Assembly: GCA_018968925.1 (NCBI GenBank)
Contig: JAGWZI010000006.1
Coordinates: 1 to 34,579 of the forward strand
Source: Patescibacteria group bacterium
GTDB lineage: Bacteria > Patescibacteriota > Minisyncoccia > Phycocordibacterales > GWA1-40-21
Direction of reading: 5' to 3'
DNA length: 34,579 bases
The position numbers and the translations under genes are program-made. The notes beneath the pieces were generated by a model, which saw only the letters and a list, made by a program, of their open reading frames with translations, was not told the origin of the DNA and searched no databases. Positions 1 to 21,444 of this stretch are shown piece by piece. Positions within the stretch are counted from its first letter, which is position 1. The number at the start of each line of letters is the position of its first letter.

Positions 1-1497
<1,497 letters not shown>

Positions 1498-1670
1498 TTC
1501 CTATTCGGAAATTTAAAAACCACAACTGCCGCATCCGCTTCAAACGGATACGGCCATGTTTCGACCTGTCATGTGGAATCAATCCGCACGACAGATCATT
1601 TTTACCTGCCTGTCTGCGCCGCCTGAAAGACCCCGTCCGACATAGGTCGGACGAAACCGGCGGCGCGACA

Positions 1671-1687
1671 GAATTCAGTTGTCAATT
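1671..1687 (-). promoter_or_regulatory. boxA-like antitermination element in the 23S leader
   Basis: Minus strand AATTGACAACTGAATTC resembles rRNA-leader boxA sequences of the TTGAnAACTnAAT type. Located between the terminator-like hairpin and the 23S gene. Confidence 0.4.
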
Positions 1688-1702: not shown

Positions 1703-1763
1703 GAAAAAACCGCCTTCCGGCGGCTCATGGAGTCAATGCCAAAGCATTGGCTATATGAACCGC
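1703..1763 (-). promoter_or_regulatory. Candidate transcription attenuator: antiterminator hairpin overlapping an intrinsic terminator
   Basis: Minus RNA: GCGGTTCAT-AT-AGCCAATGC-TTTG-GCATTGACT-CC-ATGAGCCGC (1720-1763, 9 bp + 2x2 internal loop + 9 bp), mutually exclusive through 1720-1723 with CCGCC-GGAA-GGCGG-TTTTTT (1704-1723). Confidence 0.6.
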
Positions 1764-1803
1764 TGTAAAAATTGGTTTTTGTTCTGCATATCTGAGCCAG
1801 GAG

Positions 1804-1831
1804 AGTATAGCGGAAATCAAAATAAAGTCAA
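1804..1831 (-). promoter_or_regulatory. Promoter of the 23S rRNA transcript: TTGACT-N16-TATACT
   Basis: Minus strand TTGACT (1826-1831), 16-bp spacer, TATACT (1804-1809). Predicted start ~1797, upstream of the 23S leader and downstream of the previous gene's terminator. Confidence 0.72.
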
Positions 1832-2808: not shown

Positions 2809-3405
2809 TTATCCCAAAATGTGCCCGAGATCGGTCTCGTAGATGACCATTTCCTGGATGTGGCGGTATTTGAGGACTTCGTTTTGCTTGAACCAAAGGT
2901 TGATCTCATTCTTCGCTTCGTCGACGGAACCGGACGCGTGGATGACGTTGCGCACCGCGCGGCCGTCCGTGTCGGCAAGCTGATAGGAATCGAGGACGAG
3001 ATCGCCGCGGATCGTGCCGACATCGGACGTGAGCGGCTCGGTCGAGCCGACAAGCTTGCGCACGAGCGCGACCGCATGCGCCCCTTCGAGGACGAATGCG
3101 ACGACCGGGCCGGACGTGAAGTATTCGACGAGATTGCCGAGCACGCGCTTGCCGATATTCAAGGGATCGTTCGACGGCGCTTTCAGGCCTTTCTTCTCGT
3201 AACCGGCGATGGTTTTCTCGCCGACTTTGCGGAGCCACTCGGGGTCGAGCGTGTAATGCTTCTCGGCCTGCTCGCGCGTCGGCACGAGCATCTTCATGGC
3301 GACGAGCTTCAGGCCGACCTTTTCGAAGCGGCCGATGATCTCGCCGACGAGCGACCTTTGCACGCCGTCCGGTTTCACGATGACGAATGTCTGTTCGGTT
3401 TTCAT
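2809..3405 (-). CDS. ndk: Nucleoside diphosphate kinase (long form with insertions)
   Basis: FVIVKPDGVQR, GAHAVALVRKLVGSTEP, and RNVIHASGSVDEAKNEINLWF (active-site His). Confidence 0.93.
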   Translation of the reverse strand: MKTEQTFVIVKPDGVQRSLVGEIIGRFEKVGLKLVAMKMLVPTREQAEKHYTLDPEWLRKVGEKTIAGYEKKGLKAPSNDPLNIGKRVLGNLVEYFTSGPVVAFVLEGAHAVALVRKLVGSTEPLTSDVGTIRGDLVLDSYQLADTDGRAVRNVIHASGSVDEAKNEINLWFKQNEVLKYRHIQEMVIYETDLGHILG

Positions 3406-9944: not shown

Positions 9945-10385
9945 TTATTTGACCGAACCGCCGGCCTTTTCAATCTTGGCTTTCGCTTCGGCCGACGCGA
10001 GGCAACCGGTGACGGAGAGTTTCTTCGTGATATCGCCTGTGCCGAGGATCTTCACGGACGGCATTTGTCCGCCGCGAACGCGAACGAGTCCCTTGCCGGC
10101 GAGGATCGCCGGCGTGACCGCGTCTCCTGCGGAAAACACCGCGTCGAGCGCGACAAGGTTGACCACCGCCGGTTTTGCACGGAACGCGACGTTGCTGTTC
10201 TTGCCGCGGCCGCGGAGCTTCGGCATGCGCTTGATGATGTCGCGCATTTCCGGACGGCCTTTATGGCCGGCGCGGGCCGTCTGGCCCTTGCCGCCGCGGC
10301 CGGATGTCTTGCCGCGCTTGCCGCCGCGGCCGATCATCGGATATTTCTTATTCGGGGTCTTGCGGACCAGTTCGTGGATTTTCAT
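9945..10385 (-). CDS. rplO: 50S ribosomal protein L15
   Basis: GRGGKRGKTSGRGGKGQTARAG; start MKIHEL. Confidence 0.93.
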   Translation of the reverse strand: MKIHELVRKTPNKKYPMIGRGGKRGKTSGRGGKGQTARAGHKGRPEMRDIIKRMPKLRGRGKNSNVAFRAKPAVVNLVALDAVFSAGDAVTPAILAGKGLVRVRGGQMPSVKILGTGDITKKLSVTGCLASAEAKAKIEKAGGSVK

Positions 10386-10389
10386 ATGA

Positions 10390-11049
10390 TTATTCTGCGG
10401 ATTTCTCCGATTTCTCCTTGACCTCTTCCTTCGCGTCGGCAAAGAGCACGGCCGGCTTTTTCTTGGCAAACGCCGAAAGCGCCATGACCGCCGCGCGGGC
10501 GATGTTGAGCTTGTTCTTTGACGGCGAGACGATTTTCGCCGTCACGTCCGTGATGCCGGCAAGCTCGATGACGTTCTTCACCGCGCTGCCTGCCGAGACG
10601 CCGCGGCCCGGTGCCGGGATGATCATGACGCGACCCGAGGAATATTTTGCCGACACGTCGTGCGGAACGGACATCGATTTCGTGAGCGAAAGCTCGACGA
10701 TATTTTTTTTCGCGCTCCGGTACGCCTTGTCGATGGCGGCCGAGGTGTCGTTCGCCTTGCCCGTGCCGACGCCGACGGAACCCTTCCTGTTGCCGATGAC
10801 CATGGCGATCGAGAAATTCATGCGCTTGCCGCCTTTCGTGACGCGGGTGACGCGGCGGATATTCAAAATTTTCTGGTCAAATTCCGGCTTCACGCGCTCC
10901 GGGCGGCCTGCGCTCGGGCGACGGTTCTTCGGACGATCCATGCGCGGACCGCTCCGGCGCGCGAACGGCGCCTTCGGCGCGGCGTTTTCTGCCGGCGCTT
11001 GCGGCGCGGTCACGTTCTGCTTCGTTTCTGTGGTTGTCGTTTCAGTCAT
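10390..11049 (-). CDS. rpsE: 30S ribosomal protein S5 with Ala/Pro-rich N-terminal extension
   Basis: RVTRVTKGGKRMNFSIAMVIGNRKGSVGVGTGKA. Start MTETTTT preferred. Confidence 0.94.
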   Translation of the reverse strand: MTETTTTETKQNVTAPQAPAENAAPKAPFARRSGPRMDRPKNRRPSAGRPERVKPEFDQKILNIRRVTRVTKGGKRMNFSIAMVIGNRKGSVGVGTGKANDTSAAIDKAYRSAKKNIVELSLTKSMSVPHDVSAKYSSGRVMIIPAPGRGVSAGSAVKNVIELAGITDVTAKIVSPSKNKLNIARAAVMALSAFAKKKPAVLFADAKEEVKEKSEKSAE

Positions 11050-11053
11050 GATA

Positions 11054-11401
11054 TTAGAATTCAAGTCCTCCTTCGCGGGCGCCGTCGGCGAACGCCTTGA
11101 TCTTGCCGGTATAAATGAACCCGCCGCGGTCGAAGACGACTTTCTTCACACCCTTGGCGATGGCAAGCTTCGCAATCTCCTTGCCCGCGTTCTTCGATTT
11201 CTCGACGAGGCCCTTGCCCGCCGCTTCCGCCGCGGACGACGCCGCGAGCGTCACGCCTTTCGTATCGTCGATCACCTGTCCGTAGACGGACGTGTTCGAC
11301 TTGTGCACTGAGAGACGCGGCCGCTCCGCCGTGCCCGAAACCTTCGCGCGGATGCGCGCGTGGCGGGTCGTGACGCTCGTTTGTTTGCTTTTGGTATTCA
11401 T
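11054..11401 (-). CDS. rplR: 50S ribosomal protein L18
   Basis: RHARIRAKVSGTAERPRLSVHKSNTSVYGQVIDD; VVFDRGGFIYTGKIKAFADGAREGGLEF. Confidence 0.94.
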   Translation of the reverse strand: MNTKSKQTSVTTRHARIRAKVSGTAERPRLSVHKSNTSVYGQVIDDTKGVTLAASSAAEAAGKGLVEKSKNAGKEIAKLAIAKGVKKVVFDRGGFIYTGKIKAFADGAREGGLEF

Positions 11402-17871: not shown

Positions 17872-20800
17872 TTAGTTGGTGACGGACGAAACGTTCGTCG
17901 GATAGTTGAAGATCGAGGAACCGGTCAGGCCAGACTCTGCCGAGTTGCCCTGAATGTCGGTCCACAGGAAGTTCGTGCTCGACGCAAGCTGTGTAGCGAG
18001 CGAGAGCGTACCAGCCGTAGCGGCGTAGTTCGTCGGGTTCACCTTGATCCTGAAGGTCTGTGACGTGCCAGCCGGAATGCGGTAACCAGTCGACACTCCG
18101 TTCAAGAACGAAATGTAAACGGTGGCATTCGCGTTGTTGCTGACAGCGATCGTACCCGTGGCCTGCGTAACCAGAGAATTGTTCTGGTCGTAGACGCCAA
18201 CCGTCTGGGTGCCGATCGAGAGCGAACCGCCGTTGGCCGCGATGGTAACAGGCAACTGATCAAGATTGATGTCGCCTGCCGCATCCGCTGAAACCGTAAC
18301 GTCGGCAACTTCCGTCGTACCGGCAAGCGTTGCGCCAGCCGGAGTCGATACAGTGACCGTCGGCTTCGTAGCCACGAGCTTCATCGTGTTCGACGAGATG
18401 CTCAGACCCGAATTGGTCTGGATCGCGCTCGAGCCATTCTGCGATTTGACGAGAGTGAGCTTGAGCGTGCTCGAGGAGTTATCCGTCGAGAGACCGTTGA
18501 GACCGACCGTGTTGTACTTGACCGAGACCGGGATATTCACGCCGGCGAATCCAGCCGGAACCGAGATATTGAGACCGGTAACAATCGCCGTACCGGACGC
18601 CATCGGGGCCGTAACGCCGCCGACAGTGACCGAAACGATCGTGCTGTTGTTCTCGGTGTTCGCGAAGTCCATCTCCGTGATGACCGCAGTGCCGACCGAG
18701 GACGTCGCGTTGTAGACGACGACCGGGAAGGACGAACCGCCAACGACGTACTGAGCCGTCGGAGACGTGTTCACGATCGAGCCATTGATGCCCGTCGCAC
18801 CGGAAGCAACCGTGATCTGCTGACCCGTCGCGGCCGCAGGCGTGATCGTCAGGTTAGACGTCATGCCGCGAAGCGTCGCGGAGAGCGTGGTCTGGATGGT
18901 CGCCGTCGACAAAGTCGTCGTCGAACCGCCAGTCATGTTTGCACCGGACACCGTGACTGTACCACCGGTAGTACCAGTGTTCGTCAAAGTGTAGTTCGAA
19001 CCAGAACCGCCCGTCGTCGACGTCAATGTGATGACTGCTGACGAAGTGCCGATCGAGAGCGAAGCCGTAACCGGCGACGTCGATGAGCCATTGATGACTG
19101 AAGTCAACTGGCTCGCGACGTACGCGTAGCTCGAGCTTGCTGCCGATGACGTGAACTTGAACTGCTGGCCGTTCACGTTGACCTCGGCAATCATACCGCT
19201 ATCAAAGTAACCGGAAACAGTCGCCGTACCTGTGGACTTGGTAAGGGTCGGGGTGGACGGAATCGCACCGACATCCGCAAAGACGTCGATTTCCTTGGTC
19301 AAGTTCGAATTGATCGTGTCATTGACCGAGAAGTTGTTCGTCGCAGACGGCGCCGCAATGGTGTTCGTCTGTTCCGTCGTCCTCAAGTTCGAGAGCGACG
19401 TGAGCGGAAGCGTACCGGTGATACCGAGCGCCAAGCTCGTGAGCTGGACGTTCTCATTCGCACCGGCCTGGATCACGAACGAGCCGATTTCCTGGTTCGC
19501 GGTGTTCGCGAGGATCGACTGGTTCGAGTACGCCGCGTTCTTCGACAGGGTCACTGCCGCAGTGCCGAGCGTAATGGCATTGCTCGTGATCGTCGTCGAC
19601 GGGATCGTCGAGAGCGAGTTCGAGGTCATGCCCTGGGCGTTGTTCGTCGTACCCGAGAGCTGGACAGCGACGCTGCCGCCCGTGTAGCTACCGAACGCCG
19701 AGTTGATCGTGTCAGCCTTCACCGTCAGGGTGACTGTCTGGCCGGCCTGGACCGTCAAAGACGAGCCGAGGTTGTAGGTCAGAGTCGTACCCGTCCAGTT
19801 CTGGAGCGTGCCCACCTGGGCGCCGTTCACATAGAGACCGACGTTGTTGAGGGATGACGTCGCGCCCGTTGAAGCGGTCGCATTCGTCAAAACCGGCTGA
19901 ACCTGGATCTGCGAGATCTTCACCGCCTCGCCGTAATCAGCAAGGGTGTACTGCGCGATCGCGACGTTCGTCGAACCGCCAGTAATGACCGTCGGATTGA
20001 ACGACGGATCCTGCTGAACCACGATGGAACCAGCATTGATGCTGATCGTGCCAGCGCTGTTCTGCGAGAAGGTCGAATTCGACTGGTTGGTGATCGCCGC
20101 AACGTAGACGCCCTGGAGCTGCGAATCCGCAAGCATGATGTCCGCCTGATTCTGGAGGACAAACTGGCCGCTGTAATTCGCGCCGCCGACGATGTCCGCG
20201 TGGACCTCGATCGTGTGGCTGCCCGTGGTCAGGGTGTACGGAGACGCCGAGAGATCAAAGACAACAAAGCTGTTGGCATTGATGCCCGCGGACGTTCCGA
20301 CTTTCGAACCGTCGACGTAGAGGGCGAGGTTCTGGAAGGCCGACGGATTCGCCGAGCCGATGAACTTGAGCGTCAAAGCGTTCAAGTAGACCGAGCGCGT
20401 CGAGACCGAGACCGGAACCGACCATACGTTGTAGTTCATCGTGCCGGCATTGACCGAAGAATTCGCAACATTGTTGGAATCCGATCCGCCGCCGAGAAGA
20501 ACGCTCGCCGGATTCGTAGCGCCGGCAATGTTCTGGGTCGAGCCAGCAACGTTGACGTTCACCGCCGCCGTCGCACCCGAAAGGGTGAGAGACGTGAGAG
20601 AAACGCCGACCGTGCCGCTGCCCTGGCCCGTCGCGATGTCAGCCCGGACGGAAACCGTCATCGAGCCGTTCACCATGAAGAGACCGTTCGGGTTCGAGAA
20701 GCTGATCACACCGTTTGCGACCGAAGCCGCATCCGTGAGACGGGTGGCACCCTGGTACAGATAGACGTTGTTGAGCGTGCTATCCGACGAGACGCCGGTC

Positions 20801-21444
20801 CGCTGGAGGACAACTTTCGTAACCGTGCCGGTTCCCGAGAAGACGTACTGCGCGAGAAGCGCCGTAGCCGACGGAGAAACAACGGTCGAGTTGACCGGAG
20901 ACGTGGCCGCAAGAGCGACCGAGACCGAGCCGGCCGAAGTGACCGTGCCAGACGTCGAGCCGGTCGAAACCGACACGCCGCCCGCCATGCCGTTCACGAT
21001 AGCGCGAGTCTTCGGACCGAAGTAACCAGCCGCCGGCGAAATCTTTTCCGCCGCCTGGAACTTGGCGAGAGCCGCTTGCGTGAGCGAGCCGAAGTAACCG
21101 GTGTTGTAGCTCGCGCCGAGATCACCCTGAGCGATCAGGAAGTTCTGGAGAGCCGTAACCGCCGCACCTTTCGAACCGATCGTGAGATCGGACGTGAAAG
21201 TGTATGACGATGTCATCGCCGGAGCCGACGTCGTGGTCGTCACCACCGGAGTGCCGGTGAGAGACGCTTCAACGTTGGCGATCGTTCCCGCATCCGCCCC
21301 GAAGGACTGGAGGAGAGAAACGATGGCGCTGACCTGCGCCGAGGTAAGAGCGGCCGCCTGAGCAACCGTCATACCGACCATCGAGAACGTCATTGCCAAT
21401 GCGACAGCTGACGTAGCCAATGTTTTTAAACCAAATTTTTTCAT
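17872..21444 (-). CDS. Large secreted surface (S-layer-like) protein with N-terminal peptidoglycan-binding domain
   Basis: 1190 aa. Signal peptide; LTIGSKGAAVTALQNFLIAQGDLGASYNTGYFGSLTQAALAKFQAAEKISPAAGYFGPKTRAIVN (PG_binding_1-type); long Ser/Thr/Gly-rich beta-repeat region. Confidence 0.85.
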   Translation of the reverse strand: MKKFGLKTLATSAVALAMTFSMVGMTVAQAAALTSAQVSAIVSLLQSFGADAGTIANVEASLTGTPVVTTTTSAPAMTSSYTFTSDLTIGSKGAAVTALQNFLIAQGDLGASYNTGYFGSLTQAALAKFQAAEKISPAAGYFGPKTRAIVNGMAGGVSVSTGSTSGTVTSAGSVSVALAATSPVNSTVVSPSATALLAQYVFSGTGTVTKVVLQRTGVSSDSTLNNVYLYQGATRLTDAASVANGVISFSNPNGLFMVNGSMTVSVRADIATGQGSGTVGVSLTSLTLSGATAAVNVNVAGSTQNIAGATNPASVLLGGGSDSNNVANSSVNAGTMNYNVWSVPVSVSTRSVYLNALTLKFIGSANPSAFQNLALYVDGSKVGTSAGINANSFVVFDLSASPYTLTTGSHTIEVHADIVGGANYSGQFVLQNQADIMLADSQLQGVYVAAITNQSNSTFSQNSAGTISINAGSIVVQQDPSFNPTVITGGSTNVAIAQYTLADYGEAVKISQIQVQPVLTNATASTGATSSLNNVGLYVNGAQVGTLQNWTGTTLTYNLGSSLTVQAGQTVTLTVKADTINSAFGSYTGGSVAVQLSGTTNNAQGMTSNSLSTIPSTTITSNAITLGTAAVTLSKNAAYSNQSILANTANQEIGSFVIQAGANENVQLTSLALGITGTLPLTSLSNLRTTEQTNTIAAPSATNNFSVNDTINSNLTKEIDVFADVGAIPSTPTLTKSTGTATVSGYFDSGMIAEVNVNGQQFKFTSSAASSSYAYVASQLTSVINGSSTSPVTASLSIGTSSAVITLTSTTGGSGSNYTLTNTGTTGGTVTVSGANMTGGSTTTLSTATIQTTLSATLRGMTSNLTITPAAATGQQITVASGATGINGSIVNTSPTAQYVVGGSSFPVVVYNATSSVGTAVITEMDFANTENNSTIVSVTVGGVTAPMASGTAIVTGLNISVPAGFAGVNIPVSVKYNTVGLNGLSTDNSSSTLKLTLVKSQNGSSAIQTNSGLSISSNTMKLVATKPTVTVSTPAGATLAGTTEVADVTVSADAAGDINLDQLPVTIAANGGSLSIGTQTVGVYDQNNSLVTQATGTIAVSNNANATVYISFLNGVSTGYRIPAGTSQTFRIKVNPTNYAATAGTLSLATQLASSTNFLWTDIQGNSAESGLTGSSIFNYPTNVSSVTN

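Follow-up and report, generated by a model that had tools for sequence, protein, structure and literature searches.

Attenuators of the trp/his type combine a short leader ORF with mutually exclusive antiterminator and terminator hairpins, and a ribosome at the stop codon favours the terminator. They control biosynthetic operons and carry a run of regulatory codons and a separate 1:2 protector hairpin. In pyrBI it is likewise leader translation, coupled to the polymerase, that decides the fate of an intrinsic terminator; a close ribosome prevents it from forming. The leaders of E. coli rrn operons are also controlled after initiation, by boxA/Nus antitermination. A leader attenuator has reportedly been described in vitro for E. 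coli rrnB; we know of no translated ORF in an E. coli rrn leader. A direct ribosome-to-rRNA feedback switch has been sought for decades and, to our knowledge, has not been described. The leaders of ribosomal protein operons, L10 and L20 among them, act through protein binding to keep the components of the ribosome in autogenous balance, and some do so by attenuating transcription. In toiL and other sensory uORFs (PMC12121999) the translation state of a small uORF switches RNA structure; the target is a protein gene, reached via the ribosome-binding site and Rho. The ribosome feedback of Nomura and co-workers, in which translating ribosomes lower rRNA synthesis, is summarised in PMC2320978. Debate over such direct feedback goes back to 1983; in E. 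coli, ribosomes showed no direct effect in vitro (PMC2320978), and ppGpp/NTP models have been proposed.

The locus studied here lies in a stretch of 34,579 nucleotides, the whole of which we call the window. Upstream of its 23S rRNA gene is a leader that is probably a ribosome-mediated transcription attenuator of 23S rRNA, in which translation of the leader ORF would lead to termination. It shares with the trp type a predicted short ORF between promoter and gene (40/41 leaders) and a mutually exclusive antiterminator and intrinsic terminator. It differs in its target, 23S rRNA, in an AUG that lies close to the 5′ end and has no Shine–Dalgarno (SD) sequence, and in that it appears to sense translation; no codon run for a regulating amino acid was found in 114 leaders. 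A previous interpretation of this DNA, the sequence-only reading, had invoked trp/pyrBI logic. The exclusive hairpins and their leader ORF bear this out; regulatory codons and a protector hairpin are missing, and the sign is opposite to that of pyrBI, as a close ribosome should here promote the terminator. The leader would work like a trp-type attenuator without regulatory codons and with a different target and signal, and we therefore regard it as a new variant. In common with E. coli rrn, control would follow initiation and a boxA-like element (TTGACAACTGAAT, 1685-1673) is present upstream of the rRNA, but the terminator precedes this element and the polymerase would thus not yet be modified there. 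Set against the feedback of Nomura and co-workers, the mechanism would be a direct one, written in cis in the 23S leader; compared with toiL, it would act on rRNA via an intrinsic terminator. It also stands apart from the ribosomal protein leaders, since the downstream gene is 23S and the leader has only sub-threshold Rfam matches, with no leader family above threshold. In the window as a whole only LSU rRNA matched in Rfam, the best others being far below the gathering threshold. That no rRNA attenuator of this type had been described, as the sequence-only reading supposed, agrees with our literature search of open-access papers, where no leader-peptide attenuator was reported for any rRNA gene, and with Rfam, where no family matched the leader.

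If it operates as proposed, one compact, testable RNA would give direct ribosome feedback on rRNA in cis, and the attenuator would offer an answer to how cells with separate 16S and 23S genes keep both balanced. The setting is the Patescibacteria (CPR), which are tiny, uncultured and among the largest and least understood bacterial groups. Should it function in E. coli extracts, the RNA would be a ready-made sensor of translation capacity.

Anatomy of the leader and its locus

The source genome, that of a small-genome Patescibacterium, comprises 579 kb over 31 contigs. Its 23S gene stands alone; an RF02541/Rfam scan of the window found no 16S upstream of it, and none was found in the source genome, the assembly of which is incomplete (31 contigs). 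In 60 relatives, where both genes were located, 16S and 23S are many kb apart or on separate contigs. Unlinked rRNA genes are known as widespread, in the citing passages of PMC7761764 and PMC8178347. The 23S 5′ end is near-identical in records named Candidatus Zambryskibacteria, Taylorbacteria, Vogelbacteria, Nomurabacteria and Paceibacterota. The gene upstream of the leader ends at 1954 and has its own terminator (1943-1914); along the minus strand the order is this gene and its terminator, promoter, leader and 23S. The features are as follows.

1804..1831, minus strand: sigma-70 type promoter TTGACT-N16-TATACT (direct reading and promoter scan)
1751..1789, minus strand: leader ORF ATGCAGAACAAAAACCAATTTTTACAGCGGTTCATATAG, read as MQNKNQFLQRFI, 12 codons plus TAG (direct reading, conservation)
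1755..1763, minus strand: region 2, the antiterminator 5′ arm GCGGTTCAT, within the last codons of the ORF (reading, folding)
1731..1752, minus strand: inner hairpin between regions 2 and 3 (folding)
1720..1728, minus strand: region 3, the antiterminator 3′ arm ATGAGCCGC (reading, folding, swap test)
1704..1723, minus strand: intrinsic terminator CCGCC-GGAA-GGCGG-TTTTTT, region 3:4 plus U-tract (reading, scan, covariation)
1673..1685, minus strand: boxA-like element, downstream of the attenuator and upstream of 23S (direct reading)
1..1505, minus strand: 5′ half of the stand-alone 23S rRNA gene, starting at about 1505 and running off the window (RF02541)

The −35 box (TTGACT, 1831-1826) and −10 box (TATACT, 1809-1804) are separated by a 16-nt spacer and give 10/12 matches in the promoter scan. 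No other good promoter was found ahead of 23S in the window, and both boxes are kept in relatives; we infer that this is the promoter of the leader and sets its transcription start site. The ATG sits 14 nt past the −10 box, about 8 nt past the presumed start, and is not preceded by an SD sequence. GCGGTTCAT (1763-1755) pairs with ATGAGCCGC (1728-1720) around the inner hairpin, the base of which takes in two bases of the stop codon. The terminator is made up of CCGCC (1723-1719), GGAA, GGCGG (1714-1710) and TTTTTT (1709-1704). Positions 1720-1723 are common to the antiterminator 3′ arm, as its last four bases, and to the terminator 5′ arm; terminator 3:4 and antiterminator 2:3 are mutually exclusive. 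The coordinates that the sequence-only reading had given for promoter, ORF, antiterminator and terminator all proved exact on direct reading, as did the overlap of its two exclusive hairpins at 1720-1723; exclusive stems recur in 40/41 regions of the order. On folding, the 95-nt leader is 4.2 sd more stable than its dinucleotide shuffles, of which 0/200 matched its stability. A simple terminator scan of the window did not list the terminator at 1704-1723, we think because its stem was extended into the U-run; a separate purpose-made scan did.

Conservation and taxonomic range

Upstream regions of 23S (n = 41) were gathered by the position of 23S and not by leader, 30 via DNA similarity (mostly of the 23S 5′ end) and 11 via RF02541, and the leader plan was read in them by script as well as by eye. 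In each of the 41 an ATG lies 8-19 nt past the −10 box and is followed by a short ORF. The full anatomy, with the ATG at 9-19 nt, a parsed terminator and an ORF of 8-15 codons, is seen in 40/41, L061 being doubtful. The common plan runs TTGACA/T-16-TATACT, ATG, short ORF, in-frame AAGCGG (Lys-Arg) near the ORF end, stop, inner hairpin, CCGCTT-loop-AAGCGG-TTTTTT. The (A)AGCGG at the ORF end pairs with the terminator 5′ arm, hence the hairpins exclude each other. Members of the genus, family and order differ in ORF length and sequence and have the same plan; the inner hairpin is found in nearly all leaders, with variable sequence. The sequence-only reading had staked its claim on relatives having both the exclusive stems and an ORF over the 5′ arm, and essentially all those of the order with a readable 23S upstream region do. 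Being conserved in this way, the feature in the window is far beyond chance.

We scored leaders with a rule-based detector that asks for a promoter, an ATG, 6-20 codons, a terminator and an arm 3 that pairs with the end of the ORF. It picked out 114/171 23S upstream regions (34/38, 40/48 and 40/85 in three sets), counts that are lower bounds, since several misses show the plan by eye. It was positive for 0/171 reverse complements, 0/513 dinucleotide shuffles and 0/27 16S leaders of the same order. Any one sequence can hold a short ORF and a hairpin by chance; set against 114/171, these controls refute the reading that chance, or the way in which AT-rich leaders fold, accounts for the pattern; it can hardly be entertained. 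Some genomes of the class lack a recognisable attenuator, and the detector also misses some cases visible by eye. The 0/27 result led us to reject the idea that 16S carries the same device. We note that 16S leaders of the order (L031-L052, L054, L056) have a promoter, at once a short hairpin, and a boxA-like TTTGAAAATTGAAT, with neither ORF nor attenuator.

A covariance model from 36 leaders matched 82/297 genomes of the order, one match each, a count from which known positives were lost through the search filter; 28/49 named records were matched. The model also matched genomes from additional families of the class, and those matches that were inspected lie upstream of 23S. One match in the class, L113, was thought not to precede 23S; Rfam places it upstream of 23S. 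In a sample of the phylum, relaxed rules found the attenuator at 10/28 23S genes and in 0/453 shuffles, and at none of the five 16S-linked 23S operons in the sample. From these sequences the attenuator seems to accompany 23S genes that stand alone, throughout the Patescibacteria. Leaders with ORF plus attenuator also precede stand-alone 23S genes in other classes of the phylum (L281-L284, L287-L290), some having longer 5′ UTRs and L284 having an SD-like GAGGAG.

The promoter and intrinsic terminator bracket a discrete unit, and might mainly make a ~95-nt small RNA, or a micropeptide, that has its own function, 23S being mere readthrough. We hold this to be most improbable: the element is always directly upstream of 23S, with one covariance-model match per genome, no other promoter precedes 23S, the antiterminator would be pointless and the peptide sequence is not conserved. 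A good promoter between terminator and 23S was found in only 1/114 leaders, compared with 5.6 expected from base shuffling. A second promoter for 23S, which the sequence-only reading had named as a finding that would count against it, is on these figures not evident.

Leader ORF and exclusive pairing

An ORF ending at region 2, that is with a rightly placed ATG and a stop at region 2, is present in 36/37 leaders against 2.4 expected when region 2 is kept and the flanks are shuffled. The set spans dozens of families, and the significance values of this test, like those of the swap test and other permutations, ignore phylogeny. GCGG has the same phase to the ATG in 30/32 leaders, with offsets of 23, 26, 29 and 32; these steps of three mean that indels keep the frame. 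In the wider set another clade reads AAGCGG one phase on and ends Ser-Gly-stop, with lengths that again keep the frame, so region 2 is Lys-Arg in some lineages (phase 2) and Ser-Gly in others (phase 1). These sequence comparisons argue that the leader ORF is under selection. The sequence-only reading had looked to relatives for a conserved ORF length and stop position: the stop at region 2 is kept and length changes in steps of three, but length itself varies from 8 to 15 codons. In class members L248-L250 the leader ORF ends KGGGS before the same terminator type, a third reading of region 2.

Ribosomal protein leaders often work by protein binding, and the occurrence of the inner hairpin in nearly all leaders would suit a switch whose outcome is decided by a protein bound to the hairpins, such as one of the 50S subunit, or by another ligand, the ORF being incidental. 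The 36/37 ORFs against 2.4 expected and the frame-keeping indels speak against this, as do the variable sequence of the inner hairpin and the lack of any Rfam leader family above threshold, and we judge it very unlikely.

The 114 leaders encode 102 different peptides, and no conserved regulatory codon run or residue was found among their ORFs. This diversity, with the two phases, indicates that the feature kept is an ORF ending on region 2 and not a peptide; with no peptide conserved, an arrest peptide or the sensing of one amino acid is disfavoured. A real switch with this same anatomy could sense stalling inside the ORF (amino-acid supply, antibiotics, nascent peptide) and not initiation frequency. 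An early stall would then leave region 2 free and 23S would be made, and run-through would shut 23S off. Codons for Leu, Lys, Asn and Ile are abundant ahead of region 2, and many translation inhibitors are sensed by toiL and similar uORFs (PMC12121999). Sensing of stalling nevertheless appears rather unlikely, in view of the missing codon run and the 102 peptides, of the Lys-Arg and Ser-Gly readings, which preserve no particular amino acid and no arrest peptide, and of the odd physiology of making more rRNA on starvation. The leader looks like a sensor of translation itself, not of one amino acid.

Folding is consistent with a switch between the two hairpins. When the leader is folded to the end of arm 3, that arm pairs with the ORF end in 37/40. 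In the whole free leader the antiterminator is preferred and the terminator absent in 34/40, the terminator forming in 6/40. Masking the ORF through stop+9, in silico, to mimic a ribosome lets the terminator form in 39/40. With the 5′ half shuffled, the fraction of arm 3 paired upstream is 0.49 and that of terminator loss 0.13. In these in silico models it would be the position of the ribosome on the ORF that decides which hairpin forms.

The sequence-only reading had proposed to look for compensatory changes in both stems. MAFFT alignment of raw leaders misplaced the terminator arm, and an anchored alignment with padding was used instead. Double changes in the terminator helix are well above shuffles. 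The antiterminator core helix shows modest covariation, GCGG/CCGC hardly varying; it is weak because the core sequence is so conserved, and the argument for the antiterminator therefore rests on its variable extension and the swap test. The extension is species-specific and complementary to its own partner, the mean duplex energy being −11.5 kcal/mol when each is paired with its own partner and −8.4 when partners are exchanged, and 0/20,000 permutations were as good.

Proposed mechanism

RNA polymerase would start about 8 nt before the AUG of the 12-codon ORF, to judge from the −10 box. In a leader without a ribosome, region 2 would pair with region 3 and block the terminator; the polymerase would pass the boxA-like element and then make 23S. 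A ribosome at the stop codon would cover region 2 with its footprint, 3:4 would form, and the polymerase would stop at the U-tract, giving an RNA of ~95 nt. Ample translation capacity would lead to less 23S and scarce capacity to more. Structure and conservation are what support termination by a ribosome at the stop codon, and from them we infer the sign of control, the quantity sensed and the effect in vivo. The distance from stop to terminator is nearly fixed, mostly 27-34 nt in 114 leaders, which would suit a ribosome close behind the polymerase. Timing matters, since region 2 could re-pair after ribosome release and before arm 4 is made.

An SD-like sequence precedes the AUG in only 6/114 leaders. 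With almost no 5′ UTR and no SD sequence, the ORF is probably initiated weakly and translated when free ribosomes abound, and weak initiation would make the leader sensitive to them. The model needs weak initiation, as strong translation would lose most 23S transcripts. Translation of leaderless messages is known to begin with 70S particles. If such a start holds here, one might speculate that the leader reports 70S and balances 50S against 30S. A broader proposal, which we offer tentatively as somewhat short of probable, is that this is a phylum-wide device of the Patescibacteria: a near-leaderless mini-ORF would report free (probably 70S) ribosomes, directly set 23S/50S synthesis and restore 16S:23S stoichiometry after unlinking, independently of ppGpp. 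RelA/SpoT is present in 45/60 relatives, including the genome of the window. That the device simply replaces ppGpp is therefore rejected; with RelA/SpoT in most genomes, the attenuator would act beside ppGpp. A boxA-like match lies within 260 nt of the terminator in 59/114 leaders; being downstream of the terminator, the element does not explain the switch.

Some further features of the window were noted. A neighbourhood upstream of 23S (2809-3405) is conserved in relatives L006, L007, L009, L012 and L024, and by eye the genes upstream of 23S recurrently encode either nucleoside diphosphate kinase or a channel of the MscS-like kind. At 9945-11064 the L15 gene directly follows S5 with no L30 gene between them, a trait reported for CPR bacteria. 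Positions 17872-21444 encode a secreted-looking, Ser/Thr-rich repeat protein of 1190 residues, possibly located at the cell surface.
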